A stretch of 20,154 nucleotides of DNA from positions 1 through 20,154 of IMG/VR virus record IMGVR_UViG_3300046010_001902; one strand, 5' to 3'. Of this stretch, positions 8,849-20,154 are shown in pieces. Within the stretch, counting starts at the first letter, position 1; the number at the start of each line of letters is the position of its first letter. A program made the position numbers and the translations under genes. A model generated the notes under the pieces. It saw nothing but the letters and a program-made list of their open reading frames with translations, searched no databases and was not told where the DNA came from. Source of the DNA: a virus.

Positions 8849-9319
8849 ATGGCTACAACTTGGGATGGTACGGCTACAAATCAAGGCATAACTAGAACGG
8901 CAATGAATAACTTTTGGGCTAGTAATACCAATAGTAATTATCCTTGGTGTGATGGTTGTACATTACCGGCTAATTCACTTCAATTAATTACAAAGGCTTA
9001 TTTTTTAGCCAATTATTATTATGCCGGACCGGGCAATTATTTAATAAATACCGCAAAAGCAAGTTTACAAGTTTTGGTTAAAAGTGATATAGGGATACAA
9101 ATAAATTTATATACTATTGTTCCAAGTCCTGTATTCGTTGCTACTGTTTATTTAAATTCAACTTTAACATTGGCTTATACAAATGCCGCACAAACAACAT
9201 TATATAACGGATTAGGAATTGAAAGGTTTACCGATAGTATATTACAACAATGTCCTTTTGCAGAAATAACTATCAGTACAGTAGGTGTGGTTACTAATAT
9301 AAATTTTAACTATTGTTAA
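8849..9319 (+). CDS. Orphan protein after the tail fibre, possible receptor-binding accessory
   Basis: A 156-residue protein I do not recognise, beginning MATTWDGTATNQGITRTAMN one base after the fibre stop. The first third has aromatic residues and a CDGC pair (C34, C37); the rest is beta-rich (IGIQINLYTIV, VFVATVYLNSTLTLAY) with two further cysteines, one being the final residue (NFNYC). There is no signal peptide or membrane segment. Its codon use is AT-rich like the tip-coding end of the fibre, unlike the middle of the fibre, so fibre tip and this gene may have been acquired together. A fibre-tip adhesin or assembly helper is a guess from position. Confidence 0.55.
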   Translation: MATTWDGTATNQGITRTAMNNFWASNTNSNYPWCDGCTLPANSLQLITKAYFLANYYYAGPGNYLINTAKASLQVLVKSDIGIQINLYTIVPSPVFVATVYLNSTLTLAYTNAAQTTLYNGLGIERFTDSILQQCPFAEITISTVGVVTNINFNYC

Positions 9320-9334
9320 AAAATAATATATTTG
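9304..9334 (+). promoter_or_regulatory. Bacteroidota-type promoter for the lysis unit
   Basis: TTTT (9304-9307), a 19-nt spacer and TATATTTG (9327-9334), a full match to the -7 consensus TAnnTTTG known from Bacteroidota. It lies across the end of the 8849-9319 gene and the short gap before the ATG at 9351, predicting a leader of roughly 10 nt. It differs from the three early promoters in its spacer sequence. Confidence 0.6.
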
Positions 9335-11786: not shown

Positions 11787-12137
11787 TTATAGCTTCATAA
11801 TCAATTTTTGATATTCCTCTTTAAAATCACAATCCGTTTCAAGCATGTTGCTTGTTGATTTAATGGCATTGATTACCGTTGTGTGATCACGATTAAAAAC
11901 AATTCCTATCTCTTTTAATGTTAAAAGTGTATTTGATTTTAAAATATGCATTGTTAATAATCTAGGTATTACAATAGGACCTTTTCTAGTTTTTGATTTT
12001 ATTTGATCTACTGAAATATTATATTGTTCGCAAGTATTTGCGATAACTGTATCAATATACTGCAATACTTTCTTTTTTGGCATTGTCTTAAAGCCAATCT
12101 TTGCTTTCTTAATTCCCGGTATTATCATGTAGTTCAT
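11787..12137 (-). CDS. Orphan DnaA domain IV (origin-binding) protein
   Basis: A 116-residue protein whose C-terminal 80 residues match the DNA-binding domain of the bacterial initiator DnaA: SKTRKGPIVIPRLLTMHIL, LTLKEIGIVFNRDHTTVINA. The RDHTTV motif (residues 83-88) is the DnaA signature that contacts DnaA boxes. The AAA+ domain and domains I-II are absent; residues 1-25 are only a basic stretch (GIKKAKIGFKTMPKKK). It is the last gene of the minus-strand operon. It could mark a phage origin, recruit host DnaA/DnaB, or compete for host DnaA boxes; which one is unknown. The start could also be the ATG three codons in (12128). It overlaps the preceding gene by 29 bp. Confidence 0.85.
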   Translation of the reverse strand: MNYMIIPGIKKAKIGFKTMPKKKVLQYIDTVIANTCEQYNISVDQIKSKTRKGPIVIPRLLTMHILKSNTLLTLKEIGIVFNRDHTTVINAIKSTSNMLETDCDFKEEYQKLIMKL

Positions 12138-12732: not shown

Positions 12733-12969
12733 TTAATGATTGAATTTTACTTTAATAATAAGAGTGTTGGTAATTGTACTAAATTGTCGCGCGTAAACTT
12801 TATAAAAAGAATAATGCGCATTACCAGGATCAAATGTTACATCCATCCCAATGATGTCACCAATAACAGGTGCAATTGTAATGTTTAAAGGTATTTGATT
12901 CATTTTAGGCTCCAACTCGGTACCTTCATTTAGGTTATACTCGATAACCATTTTTGTTGTTTTTTCCAT
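12733..12969 (-). CDS. Hypothetical 78-residue beta-rich protein
   Basis: Not recognised. Begins MEKTTKMVIEYNLNEGTELE; then PLNITIAPVIGDIIGMDVTF, a central FDPGNAHYSFYKVYARQF and a closing beta strand (TNTLIIKVKFNH). It is probably a small beta-barrel or sandwich. It is the first gene after the promoter at 12993-13023, with a short leader rich in A (aaaatcaaagaaa before ATG), so it and the downstream small genes can be expressed separately from the helicase group. Confidence 0.6.
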   Translation of the reverse strand: MEKTTKMVIEYNLNEGTELEPKMNQIPLNITIAPVIGDIIGMDVTFDPGNAHYSFYKVYARQFSTITNTLIIKVKFNH

Positions 12970-12992
12970 TTTCTTTGATTTTGTTTAGAAAC

Positions 12993-13023
12993 CAAAGCTA
13001 TATTATTTTAATTTAATAAAAAA
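12993..13023 (-). promoter_or_regulatory. Early promoter for the small-gene/DnaA-domain unit
   Basis: Minus strand: T-run ending in TTTT (13023-13020), a 19-nt spacer beginning TTATTAAATT, and TAGCTTTG (13000-12993), a full match to TAnnTTTG. Predicted leader is roughly 15-20 nt to the ATG at 12969. The T-run and first ten spacer bases are shared with both divergent promoters at 17089-17152, pointing to co-regulation. Confidence 0.7.
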
Positions 13024-13029
13024 ATATTT

Positions 13030-14253
13030 TTAATATATTTTTTTAAAGTGCCTTAAAGTAAAGTCTTTTTTTAGTTGGACCATGTTAAAAATACGCTCCT
13101 CAATGCCTCCAACGGTGAATATCCAAAACACTTTTGATGCTATTGTCCGGTCCTTTGTCTGCATCCTTGCCCTTGATTGCCAATAGCTTACCGCCGAAAA
13201 GTCAATATTGTACATGACAAGCGCATCGGCCGTGCTTAAATTTATCCCCTCCCTTCCGCTTTGCACCTGGCTTATGAATACCGCATCGCCTCCGGCCTTG
13301 TTGAACTCTTGCGGATCATCATATGAGTTTTTAAAAGTTGCCTTTAAAAGCAATCCTTCGGCTATGTACTTATAAAAGATGGCTATCTTTTGATCCTTAA
13401 ACCTTTCCTTAATAAAATTGGCTTTTGTGTCATCAAAGATGATTGCATTGCCATCATCCTTTTTAACCGTTCCGCTGCATATTTGATGGACCTTTTGCAT
13501 CTCTTTGACCGCCGTATCGGCAACGACAATCTCGCCATCCTTTGTCCTAAATAATTTGTCCTTGGTAATCTTATCAATGGCCCATTTGACCTTATCACTC
13601 ATTGGCACATACAAGATGGCCTCTTGCACCAAAGATTCAAATCCGGCCTCCTGTTGCGTATATGTCAAAAACAAATGATTTATCTCGCATTCAATCAACT
13701 CCGTTTTGACATGTGAGTAATCAGCAAGCTCACGATTGAAAACAAATTTTTTCTTTGGGATGCCATAATGCTTATGCCAGGAATAAAAGTTTTTATGATC
13801 TGCAAATGGTGATTTATCCGATACCCAAAATTGATGGAATATTTGAGCAAAGCTTTCCGGTGTTGGAGTGCCACTTAAATAGATGACCGGCTTTTTTTGA
13901 CATAATACTTTTAATGTTTTTGTACGCTCCGATGGTATAGGGTATTGGCCCAAGCAATGTGCCTCATCTAATATGATAATATCATAATTATCAATATACT
14001 TTTGTACGCTTTCATAATTAATTACATCAAGATTATATTTATAGCCTGTTAATTTAAAATCATCCTCAATGCTTGAGATAGCTTTTTTCTTTGTGACAAA
14101 TAAGACATTTTGAACTCCCATCTTATTAGCCAAATGCAAACTTGTTAATGTCTTGCCGGTCCTTACTTGCATGGCAAGATATACCAACCCAAATTCATTA
14201 ATCACCTCAAGGCCCCTATTGGCTATGTCGATTTGATAGTCTCGCAACTCCAT
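13030..14253 (-). CDS. SF2 (SNF2/DEAD-like) DNA helicase
   Basis: A 407-residue ATP-dependent helicase or translocase. Motif Q-like start MELRDYQIDIANRG; Walker A QVRTGKTL (29-36); DEAH box (96-99); motif III SGTPT (127-131); C-terminal RecA-like lobe with motif V SGREGINLSTAD and motif VI YWQSRARMQTKDR. The short form without extra domains and the 'RDYQ...GKT' start match the small SNF2-like helicases of phages, used in replication or recombination. It follows the mini-zincin gene by 11 nt and ends where the next promoter begins. Duplex or branch specificity cannot be read from the sequence. Confidence 0.9.
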   Translation of the reverse strand: MELRDYQIDIANRGLEVINEFGLVYLAMQVRTGKTLTSLHLANKMGVQNVLFVTKKKAISSIEDDFKLTGYKYNLDVINYESVQKYIDNYDIIILDEAHCLGQYPIPSERTKTLKVLCQKKPVIYLSGTPTPESFAQIFHQFWVSDKSPFADHKNFYSWHKHYGIPKKKFVFNRELADYSHVKTELIECEINHLFLTYTQQEAGFESLVQEAILYVPMSDKVKWAIDKITKDKLFRTKDGEIVVADTAVKEMQKVHQICSGTVKKDDGNAIIFDDTKANFIKERFKDQKIAIFYKYIAEGLLLKATFKNSYDDPQEFNKAGGDAVFISQVQSGREGINLSTADALVMYNIDFSAVSYWQSRARMQTKDRTIASKVFWIFTVGGIEERIFNMVQLKKDFTLRHFKKIY

Positions 14254-14264
14254 ATTTAAGTAAA

Positions 14265-14534
14265 TTAATTTGTGCCGTCCTGTAATGGTGTATCGTTCGT
14301 ATCATCGATACGGCGATAACCCTCTTGCCATAAAATCTTTGTGTATGCTATGGATTTTTTAATGACAGTCTCCTCCGAATCTTTGGCATCCAATAGGTGT
14401 CCGATTTCATGGAGCAAAATTTCCAAATGCTTTTTTCCGCGCAAACGCGGATCCAAATATATTATCCCATCGCTCTCCGCAATGCCATGAGCTTGTTCCC
14501 TTCCTAGTTTTTTATAAATTATCTTTATTTTCAC
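14265..14534 (-). CDS. Small HExxH zinc-metalloprotein (mini-zincin)
   Basis: An 89-residue protein. After a beta hairpin (GIAESDGIIYLDPRLRGKKH) comes H42-E43-I-G-H46, the HExxH zinc-binding and catalytic motif, preceded by the helix LEILLHEIGHLL. A following glutamate (E53/E54) could be the third ligand. Such short zincins resemble the core of SprT or ImmA/IrrE-like proteins and occur in early regions of many Bacteroidota phages. Possible roles are cleaving a host regulator or only binding zinc; neither is shown. It overlaps the upstream gene by 23 bp. Confidence 0.7.
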   Translation of the reverse strand: MKIKIIYKKLGREQAHGIAESDGIIYLDPRLRGKKHLEILLHEIGHLLDAKDSEETVIKKSIAYTKILWQEGYRRIDDTNDTPLQDGTN

Positions 14535-14712
14535 TTCGAGTCTTAATTATTTTTTTGAGATAAATAGCTAAATCTAATGCTTCCTCGTATGCATGTTGTA
14601 ACCATTGCTCTTCGCTTAAATCCTTTCTATCCATTGTCGTTCCATACTCCGCTCGGCCCTTCTCCTCTCTAAATAATAAATCATCAATAACATCATATAA
14701 AAGTTTACTCAT
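14512..14712 (-). CDS. MazG-like small helical protein
   Basis: A 66-residue helical protein with REEKGRAEYGTTMDRKDLSE followed by EQWLQHAYEEALDLAIYLKK. The pattern 'R..KYG......l....WL.HA.EE.lD.aiYL.K' is characteristic of short MazG-like or dATP/dGTP pyrophosphohydrolase-type phage proteins, where the EExxD cluster (E43, E44, D47) would bind Mg. At this length only part of the four-helix site is present, so it may act as a dimer or have lost catalysis. If active it would trim nucleotide pools. It is coupled to the exonuclease gene by TAATG. Confidence 0.6.
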   Translation of the reverse strand: MSKLLYDVIDDLLFREEKGRAEYGTTMDRKDLSEEQWLQHAYEEALDLAIYLKKIIKTRSENKDNL

Positions 14713-15449
14713 TATTTATCCGTTTTATTATGATGCTTGCCGCATGTTCTGCATCTAAAAATTAATTTTACCACTCCGCTTGCTAATGCCCTTCGGTCCT
14801 TGATTACCAGGTCATCGCTGCCACACTCCGGGCAACTTCCTTTGTGATGGCCAAATATTACTCCGTAATGTGTTTTGGGTGCGATATGGTTTGATAGTTT
14901 CTTATGCACTTTCTCAAGTAATACAACATCCATTTTGCAATACTTAACCATCTTATCCATTGCCACTTGATCCTTTTTTAAAACGATGTTTTTCCATAAG
15001 TCAAAATCCGTTTTAATCTTGGAGCCGATGCCTAAATATCCGGCAATGTAATTAAGCTTATTGCTATTGAATTTAAATTTTGACCTTGAGACTTTTAAGG
15101 TGTCAATGGTTTGGTAGGTTGGAAACATATCGATGCCGTAAAATAAACATCTTGTCCTCACCCAAGCAAGATCAAACTTATCACCATTATGACCAACCAA
15201 CTCATCCGCTTCATTTACAATCTTGATAAAATCTTGAAGCATTTTTTTATCACTTTGCTTTACATCCCAGGTGAGCGCGTGAGTCTCTTTATCATCCTCC
15301 CATTTGTAACATATGCAAATAATGGCACGCTCGGTGATAATATTCTGCGGCCCAATGTTTAACTTAAACCCGCTTTGCCAAAAAAAACCAATGTTCGGAC
15401 TTGTCTCGATGTCGAAATACAATCTCTTCCTTTTGGTTCTCGTTATCAT
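14712..15449 (-). CDS. DEDDy 3'-5' exonuclease with C-terminal zinc ribbon
   Basis: A 245-residue RNase-H-like exonuclease. Exo I YFD13IE15TSP; Exo II ELVGHNGDKFD93; Exo III Y170CKMD174, giving the DEDDy set of DnaQ and family-B proofreading domains. A zinc ribbon follows: CPEC (C206, C209) and CRTC (C233, C236). No polymerase domain is attached and none is encoded in the window, so it works alone or with a host or distal phage polymerase. It may process DNA ends with the adjacent PD-(D/E)XK nuclease, helicase and SSB. Zinc-ribbon DEDD proteins occur in other Bacteroidota phages, where the substrate is not known to me. Confidence 0.85.
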   Translation of the reverse strand: MITRTKRKRLYFDIETSPNIGFFWQSGFKLNIGPQNIITERAIICICYKWEDDKETHALTWDVKQSDKKMLQDFIKIVNEADELVGHNGDKFDLAWVRTRCLFYGIDMFPTYQTIDTLKVSRSKFKFNSNKLNYIAGYLGIGSKIKTDFDLWKNIVLKKDQVAMDKMVKYCKMDVVLLEKVHKKLSNHIAPKTHYGVIFGHHKGSCPECGSDDLVIKDRRALASGVVKLIFRCRTCGKHHNKTDK

Positions 15450-15473
15450 AATGCGGGTTTAAGTGTAAAACTA

Positions 15474-16220
15474 CTATTTTTTATGAGATAACTGATAACT
15501 AAATTCTCTCGGCTTATCATTCTCATGCTCCGCGTTCCATAACTGTTGGACTGCAAGGAACAATGACCAATCATCCGAGGTGTCATCTTTGGTCACCATC
15601 TGCCACCCAGGACCTTGGATGACTCCATTCTTACCATAGGTCCGAGTCTTTGCATTAAGCCATAAAATAGCCACGCCATCAATGTCCGGCATGTTATCGG
15701 ATTGCTTTACCGAATGATTATATAATTCCTTATAAGCTGCCAATTGCAGCCAATAACTATTATATATCCCATTGCTTGTCTTAATGTCTAAAACATATGT
15801 TTTGCCATCAATGGTACATATACGATCAAGTGTACCCGCAAACTTTAAATGATTGCTTACAAAGGTTTGCTCAATCATTGCATGTACCGGCTTATGGTTT
15901 ACGCTGAATTCAACATAACGCTCAAACATATTCCACTCCTCAAGCGAATACTTTGGGCGGTTGTTATCATCCAATAATTTACACTCCATGCCGTGATCAT
16001 AATCCTCGGTCAATTGGTGTACGGTAGATCCCCGGCGCCCGGCGTTATCTCTTATCTCATCTGCCTTTGAGCCAACCTCCTTCATCCATTGGATAAGGGC
16101 AAATGGCTTTGGATAAGCTTCAAGTAAAGTGGTGGCACTTGGGAAATAATTCCCATCTTCATCGTGGTAAAATCTACCATCGACAAATGTTAATTGATTG
16201 GTTTTGGTTTTTACTAGCAT
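15474..16220 (-). CDS. PD-(D/E)XK nuclease, RecB/Cas4-like
   Basis: A 248-residue nuclease. The early segment GRRGSTVHQL (H68) with the first acidic residue E117, then AGTLD132RI, D145-I-K147-T and Q159xxxY163 form the RecB-type PD-(D/E)XK signature (E, GxxD, DxK, QxxxY). Cas4's cysteine cluster is absent, so this is RecB-like rather than Cas4. It should degrade double-stranded DNA ends and, next to an SSB and helicase, could generate recombination substrates. It starts 7 bp inside the preceding gene's end, implying translational coupling. Confidence 0.85.
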   Translation of the reverse strand: MLVKTKTNQLTFVDGRFYHDEDGNYFPSATTLLEAYPKPFALIQWMKEVGSKADEIRDNAGRRGSTVHQLTEDYDHGMECKLLDDNNRPKYSLEEWNMFERYVEFSVNHKPVHAMIEQTFVSNHLKFAGTLDRICTIDGKTYVLDIKTSNGIYNSYWLQLAAYKELYNHSVKQSDNMPDIDGVAILWLNAKTRTYGKNGVIQGPGWQMVTKDDTSDDWSLFLAVQQLWNAEHENDKPREFSYQLSHKK

Positions 16221-16402
16221 GTGTATTCTTTTATGGTTTCGGTAATTACTTTATCGCCATTATTGGCAATGACTGCGGTAGCAATTTGCTCAATCTCTTC
16301 AAGGGTTTCGGCCCCTGTAATAAACTTATTATCGACATATAAGAAATATCTCTCAAAATTGTCGATGATGTTAATCTCTTTGGTAATTTTAATTTTCGGC
16401 AT
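16214..16402 (-). CDS. Hypothetical 62-residue protein
   Basis: Not recognised. Begins MPKIKITKEINIIDNFERYF; the layout is beta strands (FERYFLYVDNKFITG) then a helix (ETLEEIEQIATAVIANNG), a small alpha-beta protein with no nuclease or metal motif. It overlaps the nuclease gene by 7 bp, so it may be a partner or regulator, which is inference from coupling only. It is preceded by a 65-bp gap with a tandem heptamer. Confidence 0.55.
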   Translation of the reverse strand: MPKIKITKEINIIDNFERYFLYVDNKFITGAETLEEIEQIATAVIANNGDKVITETIKEYTC

Positions 16403-16445
16403 ATTTTTAATTTTAAATTATAAAAAGTGCCTTTTTGTACGGAAG

Positions 16446-16459
16446 GCTAACCGCTAACC
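16446..16459. repeat. Tandem heptamer GCTAACC in an intergenic gap
   Basis: Two adjacent perfect copies (16446-16452 and 16453-16459), followed by AAAACCAAC, in the 65-bp space between the SSB-like gene and the 62-residue protein gene. No -7 box matching TAnnTTTG was found in this gap. It could be a protein-binding site or a chance repeat. Confidence 0.5.
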
Positions 16460-16467
16460 AAAACCAA

Positions 16468-17055
16468 CTAAAAAGGTGACTCCTCATCTAAAACCAAATC
16501 ATTATCATTATGCTTGGCAAAAATCTTTAAAGCAGTTTGTTCAAGGAACTCCATCATTGCAGAATCATCCCATTGCTCTTTACCTTTAACTTTAATCTTC
16601 TCCATTTGTGGTAAGCCATTAGGCGCATCCTTTGTGTAAGCCGGTGCAATCTTTGTATCATCTTGATACATTGTTATGCCGGTAATCGTTTTGCTTACAT
16701 CGTTTTTGTCCTTCATTGCCCACGGCATAAATCTTAAAGGTTCCTCAATGTTAATGTTTGGCAAAGCTTTTAAAAAGCTTGATGCATATCGACTTGAGTA
16801 CGGCATTGATACAATATATGTATCGGCGCCATCCTGGAATGTCAATTGCCATTGCTTACCATAATCATTTTCACGAGTGTTAATGTTTGTAATTAACCCC
16901 GTTAAGTCTTTGAAGCGTTCCTCAAAAACAAGTTTACCGGTTTTTGTTACTCGCTCGGTTGTGCGATCATTCGCCGTTTTGTGTTGGCGTACTAGGTTCC
17001 CATCGGAAACGGAGAGGTAAGTTAAATTTGTACCTCCTAAATTTGATAAAGCCAT
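16468..17055 (-). CDS. Probable single-stranded DNA-binding protein
   Basis: A 195-residue protein whose last residues are DLVLDEESPF. An acidic tail ending in x-P-F is the hallmark of bacterial SSB and phage gp2.5-type proteins, through which they recruit replication partners. The N-terminal 110 residues are beta-rich with aromatic residues suited to an OB fold (NDYGKQWQLTF, DTYIVSMPYSSRYASSFL). Conventional SSB sequence patterns are not obvious, so it may belong to a phage-specific SSB family. It is first in the minus-strand operon, directly under the divergent promoter, with a nuclease, exonuclease and helicase downstream, which fits. Confidence 0.7.
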   Translation of the reverse strand: MALSNLGGTNLTYLSVSDGNLVRQHKTANDRTTERVTKTGKLVFEERFKDLTGLITNINTRENDYGKQWQLTFQDGADTYIVSMPYSSRYASSFLKALPNINIEEPLRFMPWAMKDKNDVSKTITGITMYQDDTKIAPAYTKDAPNGLPQMEKIKVKGKEQWDDSAMMEFLEQTALKIFAKHNDNDLVLDEESPF

Positions 17056-17088
17056 GATTTAAATATCGTTTGTTTTATAACGACATCA

Positions 17089-17119
17089 CAATACTAATCT
17101 TTTTTAATTGAATAAAAAA
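17089..17119 (-). promoter_or_regulatory. Divergent early promoter, leftward arm
   Basis: Minus strand: TTTT (17119-17116) inside a T7 run, a 19-nt spacer beginning TTATTCAATT, and TAGTATTG (17096-17089), differing from TAnnTTTG at one position. It drives the SSB-like gene and the whole recombination unit; the predicted leader is about 25 nt. Its -33 element abuts that of the rightward promoter. Confidence 0.6.
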
Positions 17120-17121
17120 AC

Positions 17122-17152
17122 TTTTTTATTAAATTTTTTTAAATTACTTTTG
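17122..17152 (+). promoter_or_regulatory. Divergent early promoter, rightward arm
   Basis: TTTT (17122-17125) in a T6 run, a 19-nt spacer beginning TTATTAAATT, and TACTTTTG (17145-17152), a full match to TAnnTTTG. It should start a transcript near 17160 for the membrane peptide, AT-hook protein, VRR-NUC and primase genes. The sequence between the two T-runs is the near-palindrome AATAAAAAAACTTTTTTATT. Confidence 0.65.
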
Positions 17153-17310
17153 AAAGGTAAACGAAATACCTCCGCTAATTAACAATAATTAATAATCGTA
17201 GTGGGTTATCCTGGATGGGAGCGGGGGTGTTTTTTTATAAGGTTTGACCATTTAAAGCTATTGGATAAAATCGGTAGTGTCCTTAAAAATGGTATCTTAA
17301 AACCAATAAC
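17153..17310 (+). promoter_or_regulatory. Long untranslated leader with a short hairpin
   Basis: About 150 nt with no gene. Near its 5' end AGGTA (17155-17159) and TACCT (17167-17171) pair around AACGAAA, at the expected transcription start, so it could be an operator or a 5' hairpin. Further on is a G-rich stretch (gatgggagcgggggtg) followed by seven T. A weaker second promoter-like pair, TTTG then 19 nt then TAAAATCG, ends near 17272 and would give a short leader. The other early promoters here have leaders of only 15-25 nt, which makes this one unusual. Confidence 0.45.
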
Positions 17311-17403: not shown

Positions 17404-17536
17404 GCCACTCCCCGAAAAGGAAAAGAAAAAAGCTTTGACCATAATGGTAAAAAGCAAATTTTTAAATGAAGCTAAAAAAGAACTTAAAGAAATTGAGAGA
17501 ATCTATTCTGCAAAGCAAAGTCATCCGGCACTTTGA
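17378..17536 (+). CDS. Small basic DNA-binding protein with AT-hook-like start
   Basis: A 52-residue basic protein, MKKETRGRKPLPEKEKKKAL then TIMVKSKFLNEAKKELKEIE. RGRKP resembles an AT-hook core; the segment ALTIMVKSKFLNEAKKELKEI has the beta strand plus helix layout of ribbon-helix-helix proteins. Small proteins with 'GRKPLPEKEKKK' followed by this layout are frequent in Bacteroidota phages and mobile elements, typically as presumed regulators. AT-hook binding to the adjacent A/T-rich promoter region would allow autoregulation (inference). It overlaps the VRR-NUC gene by 71 bp in another frame. Confidence 0.65.
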   Translation: MKKETRGRKPLPEKEKKKALTIMVKSKFLNEAKKELKEIERIYSAKQSHPAL

Positions 17537-17756
17537 GTTAATCGGTTGGTATGTCGTAAAGATTATACAATGCAATAAAAATGGCATGCCCGACCTAATG
17601 ATCCTTAAGGATGGTAAAACTTTCTTTATTGAATGCAAGGCCGAAAAGGGCCGGCTTTCGGAATTACAAAAGTATAGACATGAACAACTTGAAGAGCAAG
17701 GGTTTCGCGTTTACACTATTTACAAAATGGATGAGATTAAATTTATAACCAAATGA
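17466..17756 (+). CDS. VRR-NUC domain nuclease
   Basis: A 96-residue protein that is essentially one VRR-NUC (PD-(D/E)XK-like) domain: helix ESILQSKVIRHFELIGWYVV, then GMPD43LMIL, FFIE56CK58 and the Q68 helix (ELQKYRHEQL). D43, E56, K58 and Q68 form the expected active site. Stand-alone phage VRR-NUC proteins are thought to be structure-specific or Holliday-junction nucleases. The only ATG that keeps the N-terminal E12 helix is 17466, deep inside the previous gene; TTG 17493 is a possible alternative start. Its TGA overlaps the primase ATG as ATGA. Confidence 0.85.
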   Translation: MKLKKNLKKLRESILQSKVIRHFELIGWYVVKIIQCNKNGMPDLMILKDGKTFFIECKAEKGRLSELQKYRHEQLEEQGFRVYTIYKMDEIKFITK

Positions 17757-20154
17757 TTAAAGCAGCCAACTATTATGCAAATCAAGGTTTCTCCGTTATC
17801 CCAATAGGTGATAACAAGAGAGCAATTTTTCCTTGGACCGAGTTCCAATCCAAGATAATGGATGCGGCAACAATGAAGGCCCAATTTACTAACACCAGGT
17901 CAAACAACATTGCCATCATCGGTGGCGCAGTCTCCGGAGGATTAGAGATTATCGATGTTGATCTTAAATATGATGTAAGCGGTACATTATGGGATCGACT
18001 CAAAGCCGAGCTTGGAGACTTAATGGAGCTTTTATATGTGGTACGCACCAAATCCGGTGGGTATCATTTATATTATAGGTCCGAAGAGATTGAAGGCAAT
18101 CAAAAACTTGCCATGCGCCATGCAACAAAAGAGGAACTTAAAGAGACACCACACGCAAAAGAGATAGTGTTAATTGAGACACGCGGTGAGGGAGGATATG
18201 TGCTTGCACCTCCATCCGAAGGGTACACCAAAGAAAAGGACTTTAAGATAAATGTTATAACATTAGAGCAAAGGGAATCCATCCTATCAATATGTAGATC
18301 ATTCAACGAAGTAGTCAAAGAGGTGCGCCAACAAGTTATAACTGAAACCGATAATTTTCAACTTACACCTTGGGATGATTATAATAATAAGTGCGATGTA
18401 GTTGCATTACTTGAAAAGCACGGTTGGACTTGGATTGAGCGCAAAGGTGAGCGCGATTACTTAAAGCGCCCAGGCAAAACCGATTCGCATATATCCGCAG
18501 ATTATCATCAAGGACTTGGACTATTTAAAGTATTCTCAACATCAACGGAGTTTGAGACAGGCAAAGGATACAAGCCGTTTGCTATTTATACCATCCTTGA
18601 ACATGGTAGTAACTTCTCTAATGCTGCAAAGCAATTGTCTCAAGATGGATTCGGTGAACAAAAGAATCGCATCTCATCAAATATAAAAAGAGACTTCCTT
18701 AAGAAAAAAGAGGAAGGGCTTGATAATAAAAACATCGCCGCCTACCTTTCACAAAAGCATAACCTGGATGTAACCAAGACCGAGGACCTTATCAAAGATA
18801 TTGAGAGCGGTAATGGAGAGAGCATCCTTACATTTTGGAATGTCAATGATAAAGGTATTGTGACCATTGATCGGTCCAAGTTCCTTTCATTTCTATCAAG
18901 CAATGGCGGGTTTTATATTTATTATTATGACAATAAGCTTAATTACAAATTGGTCCGCGTTGAAGATGGATTTGTATCGGAGACAAACATGGAGCAAATT
19001 AAAAAGTTTCTTAACTCATATATTGACCAACTCCCATCCAACTTTGATGGCACCAACCCATCCAAGCTCCGCGAAATAATTTATAAGGGAGCCGATGCAT
19101 ATTTTAACAAAGGTTTGTTTGAGTTTATGCAAAACATTAAACTTAACTTCCTTAAGCACACCAAGACAGCCGCATATTATCCTTTTAAAAATGGAGTGGT
19201 GCGCATCACTAAAAATAAAAAGGAACTAATTAAGTACGGTGATTTGGGTGTACATGTTTGGAAAGACCAAGTAATTGATTTCAATATTGACATTGAACAA
19301 GACATCGACTTTGAATATGTTCAGTACACTAAATTTATTGATAAGGTTTGCAATGGAGACACCGAGCGCATAGCTTATGCCATTAGTTTAATTGGTTACT
19401 TACTCCATACTTACAAGGATCCGACCAAATCATTTGCCGTGATACTTGCAGAAGAGACCGAAGATGAGGCCCAAGGTGGTGGCGCCGGTAAAGGGATTTT
19501 CTTTAAGGCCATCGGTAAATTAATCAACCTGGTATCAATTGATGGTAAGAACTTTAAGCTTGATAAGTCATTTGCATTTCAACGCGTTGAGTTATCCACT
19601 CAATTGATTATTATTGAGGATTGCCGTAAGAATTTAGACTTTGAAGGATTTTATTCCAAGATTACCGAAGGGGTAACAGTTGAAAAGAAAAACAAAGATG
19701 AGCTTTATATTGATTACAATAATGCTCCAAAGTTTGGATTTACTACAAATTACACGATCAATTATAGTGGTGGACACGGCAAGCGAAGAGTAAAAGTGAT
19801 TGAGTTTGGTTCGTTCTTTAACCATAAGAACTCACCACTTGATTTCTTTGGCAATACTTTGTTTAATGATTGGGATCAAGATGAATGGAATCGATTCTAT
19901 AATTTTATGATTGAATCAGTTCAAATATATCTTGAGAGCGGTATTCCTGTTATTGAGAATAGCGACTCAATCAATCGTAAGAATGTAAAACTTAATTTTG
20001 GCGAGGACTTCCTGGCTTATTATGATGATATTGTCCGTGACAAATGGTTTGAGTTTGGCTCGGAATATATATCATTTTGTAATATTAACGACTTTGATAA
20101 AAAGGATTACTCACAAATAAGGTTTAAAAAAGGACTTCATATGTCCTCGGATAT
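17753..20154 (+). CDS. Primase-polymerase / SF3 helicase, partial (runs off window)
   Basis: Open for 800 codons to the window end with no stop. The N-terminal third is an archaeo-eukaryotic primase-polymerase domain: opening AANYYANQGFSVIPIGDNKR, IID68VD70LKYD (metal-binding DxD), SGGYH105LYY and E142TRGEGGYVLAPPS. The C-terminal part is a D5-like superfamily 3 helicase: Walker A GGGAGKG (575-581), Walker B LIIIED (618-623), with an IDFEYVQYTKFIDKV-type segment before it. Such fusions start replication by synthesising primers and unwinding the fork. It overlaps the nuclease gene by ATGA. The first Walker-A residues GG-GAGKG are standard. A SF3 arginine finger would be expected further on, at or beyond 680; I cannot confirm it. 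Confidence 0.9.
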   Translation, partial: MIKAANYYANQGFSVIPIGDNKRAIFPWTEFQSKIMDAATMKAQFTNTRSNNIAIIGGAVSGGLEIIDVDLKYDVSGTLWDRLKAELGDLMELLYVVRTKSGGYHLYYRSEEIEGNQKLAMRHATKEELKETPHAKEIVLIETRGEGGYVLAPPSEGYTKEKDFKINVITLEQRESILSICRSFNEVVKEVRQQVITETDNFQLTPWDDYNNKCDVVALLEKHGWTWIERKGERDYLKRPGKTDSHISADYHQGLGLFKVFSTSTEFETGKGYKPFAIYTILEHGSNFSNAAKQLSQDGFGEQKNRISSNIKRDFLKKKEEGLDNKNIAAYLSQKHNLDVTKTEDLIKDIESGNGESILTFWNVNDKGIVTIDRSKFLSFLSSNGGFYIYYYDNKLNYKLVRVEDGFVSETNMEQIKKFLNSYIDQLPSNFDGTNPSKLREIIYKGADAYFNKGLFEFMQNIKLNFLKHTKTAAYYPFKNGVVRITKNKKELIKYGDLGVHVWKDQVIDFNIDIEQDIDFEYVQYTKFIDKVCNGDTERIAYAISLIGYLLHTYKDPTKSFAVILAEETEDEAQGGGAGKGIFFKAIGKLINLVSIDGKNFKLDKSFAFQRVELSTQLIIIEDCRKNLDFEGFYSKITEGVTVEKKNKDELYIDYNNAPKFGFTTNYTINYSGGHGKRRVKVIEFGSFFNHKNSPLDFFGNTLFNDWDQDEWNRFYNFMIESVQIYLESGIPVIENSDSINRKNVKLNFGEDFLAYYDDIVRDKWFEFGSEYISFCNINDFDKKDYSQIRFKKGLHMSSD

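Follow-up and report, generated by a model that had tools for sequence, protein, structure and literature searches.

An A-tract/T-tract block in place of the -33 box at candidate early promoters of a phage group

Do three promoters of one phage that share sequence far upstream of their -7 boxes form a class of their own, and if so, what reads them? The DNA in question is the 20,154-bp IMG/VR phage fragment IMGVR_UViG_3300046010_001902 (37% GC), called the window here over its full length, and the promoters, P1, P2 and P3, lie at 12993-13023 (-), 17089-17119 (-) and 17122-17152 (+). A check of the window sequence found all three where the original prediction had placed them, with -7 boxes that fit TAnnTTTG exactly in P1 and P3 and with one mismatch in P2, where most other clades have TAnnTTTG. 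The upstream string is indeed common to all three, but writing it as T6-T7 and then TTATT, as the original prediction did, takes two of the T's into account a second time; the true layout is T6-7 plus ATT(A/C)AATT, then nine bases, then the -7 box. Neither TTTG nor TTG stands at -33 in P1, P2, P3 or their orthologs, and the T-tract fills that position. A promoter in the lysis region (9304-9334), said to lack the shared element, does lack the T-tract motif and has TTG near -33, as do its orthologs. Known Bacteroidota promoters combine a -33 TTTG with a -7 TAnnTTTG; F. johnsoniae has a weak -33 motif, along with AT-rich ones at -18 and -28 (PMC6847099), and F. psychrophilum has three sigma-A motif variants (PMC9723704). 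The parts of the three promoters are as follows.

12993..13000, minus strand: P1 -7 box, TAGCTTTG; relatives have TAGCTTTG or TATCTTTG at the equivalent place
13015..13031, minus strand: P1 A-tract/T-tract block, AAAAATATTTTTTTATT; kept in almost all relatives
17089..17096, minus strand: P2 -7 box, TAGTATTG, one mismatch; other clades have TAGCTTTG, TATATTTG or similar
17111..17127, minus strand: P2 A-tract/T-tract block, AAAAAAGTTTTTTTATT; in the window and relatives
17114..17130, plus strand: P3 A-tract/T-tract block, AAAAAAACTTTTTTATT; in the window and relatives
17145..17152, plus strand: P3 -7 box, TACTTTTG; in the window and relatives

What these promoters have in common became clear from relatives, drawn from 59 viral loci with the single-strand-binding-like (SSB-like) protein and 80 kept loci with the primase. 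About 55 intergenic regions retain, with few exceptions, both -7 boxes and the central A-tract/T-tract of the P2/P3 region, and P1 orthologs come after the helicase gene in the same phage group. When 91 distinct P1, P2 and P3 ortholog sequences were aligned by anchoring on the -7 box, a constant block emerged: A5-7 (about -42 to -37), one or two bases, T6-7 (about -35 to -30) and usually ATT or (W)TT. Counted from the -7 box, the whole block spans about -42 to -28, with the T-run at the -33 position and the A-run directly upstream. Its A-tract and T-tract columns hold 1.5-1.7 bits, as much as TA and TTT do in the -7 box itself, and its distance from that box is nearly fixed, while the roughly 14 nt that follow it are variable. 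The T-run was thus rightly taken as part of the shared element, but the A-tract upstream of it had been missed and (A/C)AATT is not kept in relatives. Nor are the spacer bases that had been thought conserved: the 13-mer TTTTTATTMAATT occurs in 12 of the 91 distinct promoters, and the 10-mer TTATTMAATT was rejected as the conserved unit on the same count. The original prediction had picked up the block's right half but carried it on into spacer whose likeness is only local.

Several more ordinary accounts of the block were considered. Coding constraint from the helicase gene was rejected at P1, because the block persists where the helicase stop codon lies about 80 nt upstream. A terminator T-run is not favoured, since divergent promoters flank the P2 and P3 blocks and no stem rich in GC was found ahead of P1. 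A scan for sigma-70 promoters (-35/-10) found 48, with 47 expected by chance. Chance likeness among AT-rich intergenic DNA might also be suspected, for this DNA is very AT-rich and T-runs in it are common. P2 and P3 stand back to back over one common 20-bp palindrome, AATAAAAAA-AC-TTTTTTATT (17111-17130), so that the T-tract of each is the A-tract of the other and the three sites are not three independent events. Shuffling nonetheless speaks against chance: the predicted motif with its -7 box occurs three times in the window and in 0 of 300 dinucleotide shuffles, and at least once in 0.02% of shuffles of local AT-rich segments. As P2 and P3 are not independent, the real weight of the case comes from the relatives, where the block is conserved in dozens and where the reversed pattern, used as a control, has 0 matches in 18 related genomes. 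For these sites we regard chance as refuted.

These 18 related records, of about 33-36 kb, also show where the element is used. In them T6ATT-N11-14-TAnnTTTG occurs only at the places of P1, P2 and P3 orthologs, one to three times per genome. When promoter candidates were called from -7 boxes before open reading frame (ORF) starts, blind to the T-run, and the window was added to the set, a T6 run was present in all 42 candidates beside an SSB-like or helicase gene and in 1 of 20 elsewhere (Fisher p 5e-15, which is not a true probability because the genomes are related). In almost every relative examined, the promoters of the SSB-like/recombination, primase and post-helicase operons carry the block, which is absent at lysis and other promoters. 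One contig (G013, that of L045) has the VRR-NUC/primase block the other way round, in tandem with the SSB-like operon, and each of the two retains a T-tract promoter of its own, which argues that the element belongs to the promoter and not to the divergent spacer. The class of early promoters that had been proposed is therefore supported by its distribution as a putative early-gene class, where "early" is a judgement from gene content only. In the window, portal, tail and endolysin genes occupy the plus strand up to 11,720, and a replication/recombination operon runs on the minus strand from 17,055 down to 11,787, with the SSB-like gene followed by an exonuclease, a DnaQ-like exonuclease, the helicase and a DnaA-C domain. 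P2 and P3 point away from each other, with the SSB-like gene on one side and the VRR-NUC/primase block on the other, and P1 lies upstream of a 78-aa ORF (12733-12969, -) that comes after the helicase.

11787-12137, minus strand: phage-encoded DnaA-C-domain protein
16468..17055, minus strand: SSB-like gene, first in the P2 operon; phrog_19605, a family of unknown function, labelled "SSB-like" from position and weak resemblance only
17466-17756, plus strand: VRR-NUC gene of the P3 operon
17753..20152, plus strand: primase/polymerase gene of the P3 operon, after VRR-NUC, extending past the window end

The block is not confined to this group. The pattern AAAAANNTTTTTTATTN13-14TANNTTTG has matches in at least 119 IMG/VR stretches, and its reversed control in 43. 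Among the matches listed, 93 of 120 sites in newly fetched loci lie at most 75 nt from the ATG of an ORF of at least 40 codons (12 of 43 for the control), and 18 of 120 lie inside an ORF of at least 100 codons (27 of 43 for the control). The search of related phages and other viral contigs that had been suggested thus returned matches that are mostly outside ORFs, before ORF starts and near early-type genes. Families encoded by the first downstream genes include helicases, exonucleases, SSB, Erf, DNA ligase, thymidylate synthase, replication initiation and anti-sigma factor; no structural protein was among the 25 families listed for each downstream-gene search (99 and 38 families matched in all). 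Most block-bearing contigs, some of them 130-360 kb long, have no tblastn match (1e-15) to window proteins. By shared proteins they fall into 19-40 groups, one of them large, so their independence is only partial. Four sequenced Bacteroidota phages, Muminvirus tooticki, phi46:1, phi38:1 and FCL-2 (two of them partial records), gave no clear excess, with 2 sites in total against 7 for the control, which means that the class is not universal.

What, then, would read these promoters? We think it probable, though by no means secure, that P1, P2 and P3 are host sigma-A promoters that lack a good -33 box and have a proximal UP-like A-tract and a T-tract instead. Host housekeeping (sigma-A type) RNA polymerase would recognise them through the TAnnTTTG -7 box, and the A5-7/NN/T6-7/ATT block would stand in for a good -33 TTTG: the A-tract, at about -42 to -37, may serve as a proximal upstream (UP)-like element for the C-terminal domain of the alpha subunit (alpha-CTD), and the T-tract, narrow in its minor groove, as a -33 region that the polymerase tolerates. 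The first phage genes could in this way outcompete host promoters without any phage factor. The block's occurrence in viral contigs that share no detectable protein with the window points to the host polymerase. So does the tolerance that this polymerase evidently has for a T-tract at -33, as T6ATT-N13/14-TAnnTTTG stands at orthologous promoters ahead of host thrA, trpS and a GlmU-like gene, each time in several genomes (L180-L194, L197). The alpha-CTD of RpoA in three Flavobacteriaceae, which may not include the host of this phage, contains LSVRALNCLKA...FGKKSLTE, which we take to keep the UP-contact residues of the E. coli domain, R265 included; at the level of sequence, this would be a further likeness to the E. 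coli system.

Comparison with described promoters is consistent with this host-polymerase reading while setting the block apart. Like sigma-ABfr promoters of Bacteroidota, the phage sites have a -7 TAnnTTTG before start codons and short leaders, but they carry the A-tract/T-tract block and no TTTG or TTG at -33; the AT-rich -18 and -28 motifs of F. johnsoniae promoters are likewise not the phage block (PMC6847099). The proximal UP element of E. coli, bound by the alpha-CTD at -45 to -37 (PMC2613000), resembles the phage A-tract (A5-7) in lying directly upstream of the -33/-35 region, but in the phage a T-tract then takes the place of the -35/-33 box. Early promoters of T4 match UP elements well, and at PuvsX UP elements offset a weak -35 (PMC2988021). 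These too are upstream A/T-rich elements for host polymerase, although in T4 the majority of early promoters carry good -35 and TGn elements as well, and the sigma specificity is another. Our searches of the open-access literature found no description of an A-tract/T-tract block in Bacteroidota promoters or phages.

Several observations weigh against the host-polymerase reading. The full A-tract plus T-tract pattern has only 5 matches in 301 Flavobacteriaceae genomes, against 2 for the reversed control, and four host rrn loci have TTG at -33, which together suggest that hosts do not rely on the block design; nor did our searches of the open-access literature yield a report of UP function in Bacteroidota. 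Taken by itself, the T6ATT pattern gave 134 matches against 103 for the control in 81 Flavobacteriaceae genomes, some of the matches being the thrA, trpS and GlmU-like promoters mentioned above. A T6 run at -26 to -14 from the box was seen in 4.4% of 68 candidate host promoters and at 1.2% of in-gene TAHHTTTG; the block was rejected as a generic host promoter feature, given how rare the run is in those 68 and that rrn promoters lack it. It is possible, if rather doubtful, that the promoters are a distinct early class common to many Bacteroidota phages, in which An-NN-Tn-ATT takes the place of the -33 box. Hosts would make hardly any use of this design, and recognition would be unlike that of host promoters, through an alpha-CTD that takes over the -33 region or a phage-supplied factor. 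Less likely still, the block may work by DNA shape alone (A-tract bending, stiffness, easy melting) without specific alpha-CTD contact. The AnNNTn order, the near-fixed phasing to the -7 box and the F. johnsoniae AT-rich motifs, which are more pronounced than any -33 motif (PMC6847099), would fit such a mechanism, but the conservation is base-specific, A then T, beyond what AT-richness alone needs.

A phage-encoded or virion-borne factor that binds the block and steers polymerase to early promoters, one of the options in the original prediction, we consider improbable. It would account for a block that is phage-enriched and near background in the 301 host genomes, and the P2/P3 form, a perfect 9+2+9 inverted repeat, would fit a dimer. 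P1, though, has no palindrome, and the presence of the pattern in viral contigs without detectable window proteins makes one shared factor unlikely. A scan of part of the group's genes, namely the window and ten further proteins of the closest longer relative (G003), turned up no sigma factor, no RNA polymerase and no clear activator, though a T5orf172/HTH_3 protein is present in one relative. Very unlikely, to our minds, is an operator for a repressor of early shut-off, or part of a replication origin between divergent operons. The palindromic P2/P3 block, the phage-encoded DnaA-C-domain protein and a sign change of GC skew near the divergent region would all suit it; however, P1 carries the same block 4 kb away inside one operon, the tandem arrangement in G013 keeps the block at each promoter, and skew also tracks gene direction. 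Cumulative skew itself turns near the P2/P3 region (window about 17.1 kb; G003 about 28.4 kb), a turn that may reflect either an origin or gene direction.

Further elements lie next to the promoters. At P1, an inverted repeat, TTTG(A/G)TTT...AAATCAAA (window about 12977-12997, -), covers both the tail of the -7 box and the site where transcription would be expected to start; it is kept in varied forms among relatives and is a possible operator. P3 in many relatives reads TATGTTTGCAGCAAAT and resembles host rrn promoters around the -7 box and start; the tandem host rrn promoters (loci L239-L242) end in TATNTTTGCA(C/G)CCGCT. Two leader RNAs are predicted.

17065..17084, minus strand: predicted hairpin with which the P2 (SSB-like) transcript begins at its 5' end, with stem variants in relatives
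17165..17233, plus strand: structured RNA of 69 nt in the P3 leader, downstream of P3, with covariation

The stem of the P2 hairpin has two self-complementary versions by clade, TCGTT/AACGA and GTAGT/ACTAC, around a kept loop, AAAACAAAC, and the hairpin may possibly act in mRNA protection or translational control. In the P3 leader RNA, seven of ten closing pairs are changed on both sides between lineages, and across the full structure 99% of cells are paired, where shuffles give 90% and sliding gives 37-53%, figures from an alignment that was fitted to this model and has several rows from one clade. Its inner core is AAUAAUYGUAGUGGGUUAUCC, and a U-run follows the stem. Examples occur in L040/L179 and L161 (6796-6866), and at another intergenic place in L229/L230. 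An Rfam search gave no match, and the model found one weak match in the 301 Flavobacteriaceae genomes; we consider the RNA a candidate attenuator or a leader RNA of another kind. Elements of about 65-70 nt with GC-rich stems and AU-rich loops, weak matches to the same model, lie between early genes, some directly before the helicase gene (L176 4021-4087, L167 10416-10480, L174 2899-2964, L098, L108, L133, L134).

How phages of Bacteroidota take over a polymerase with an unusual sigma factor has been little studied, and our searches of the open-access literature found no paper on it. An early promoter class that can be recognised by sequence would allow early operons to be called in metagenomic phage genomes, and the promoters that carry the block are candidate strong promoters for Flavobacterium and relatives. 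The class would also offer a test of UP elements in Bacteroidota, where the -33 element is poorly defined.

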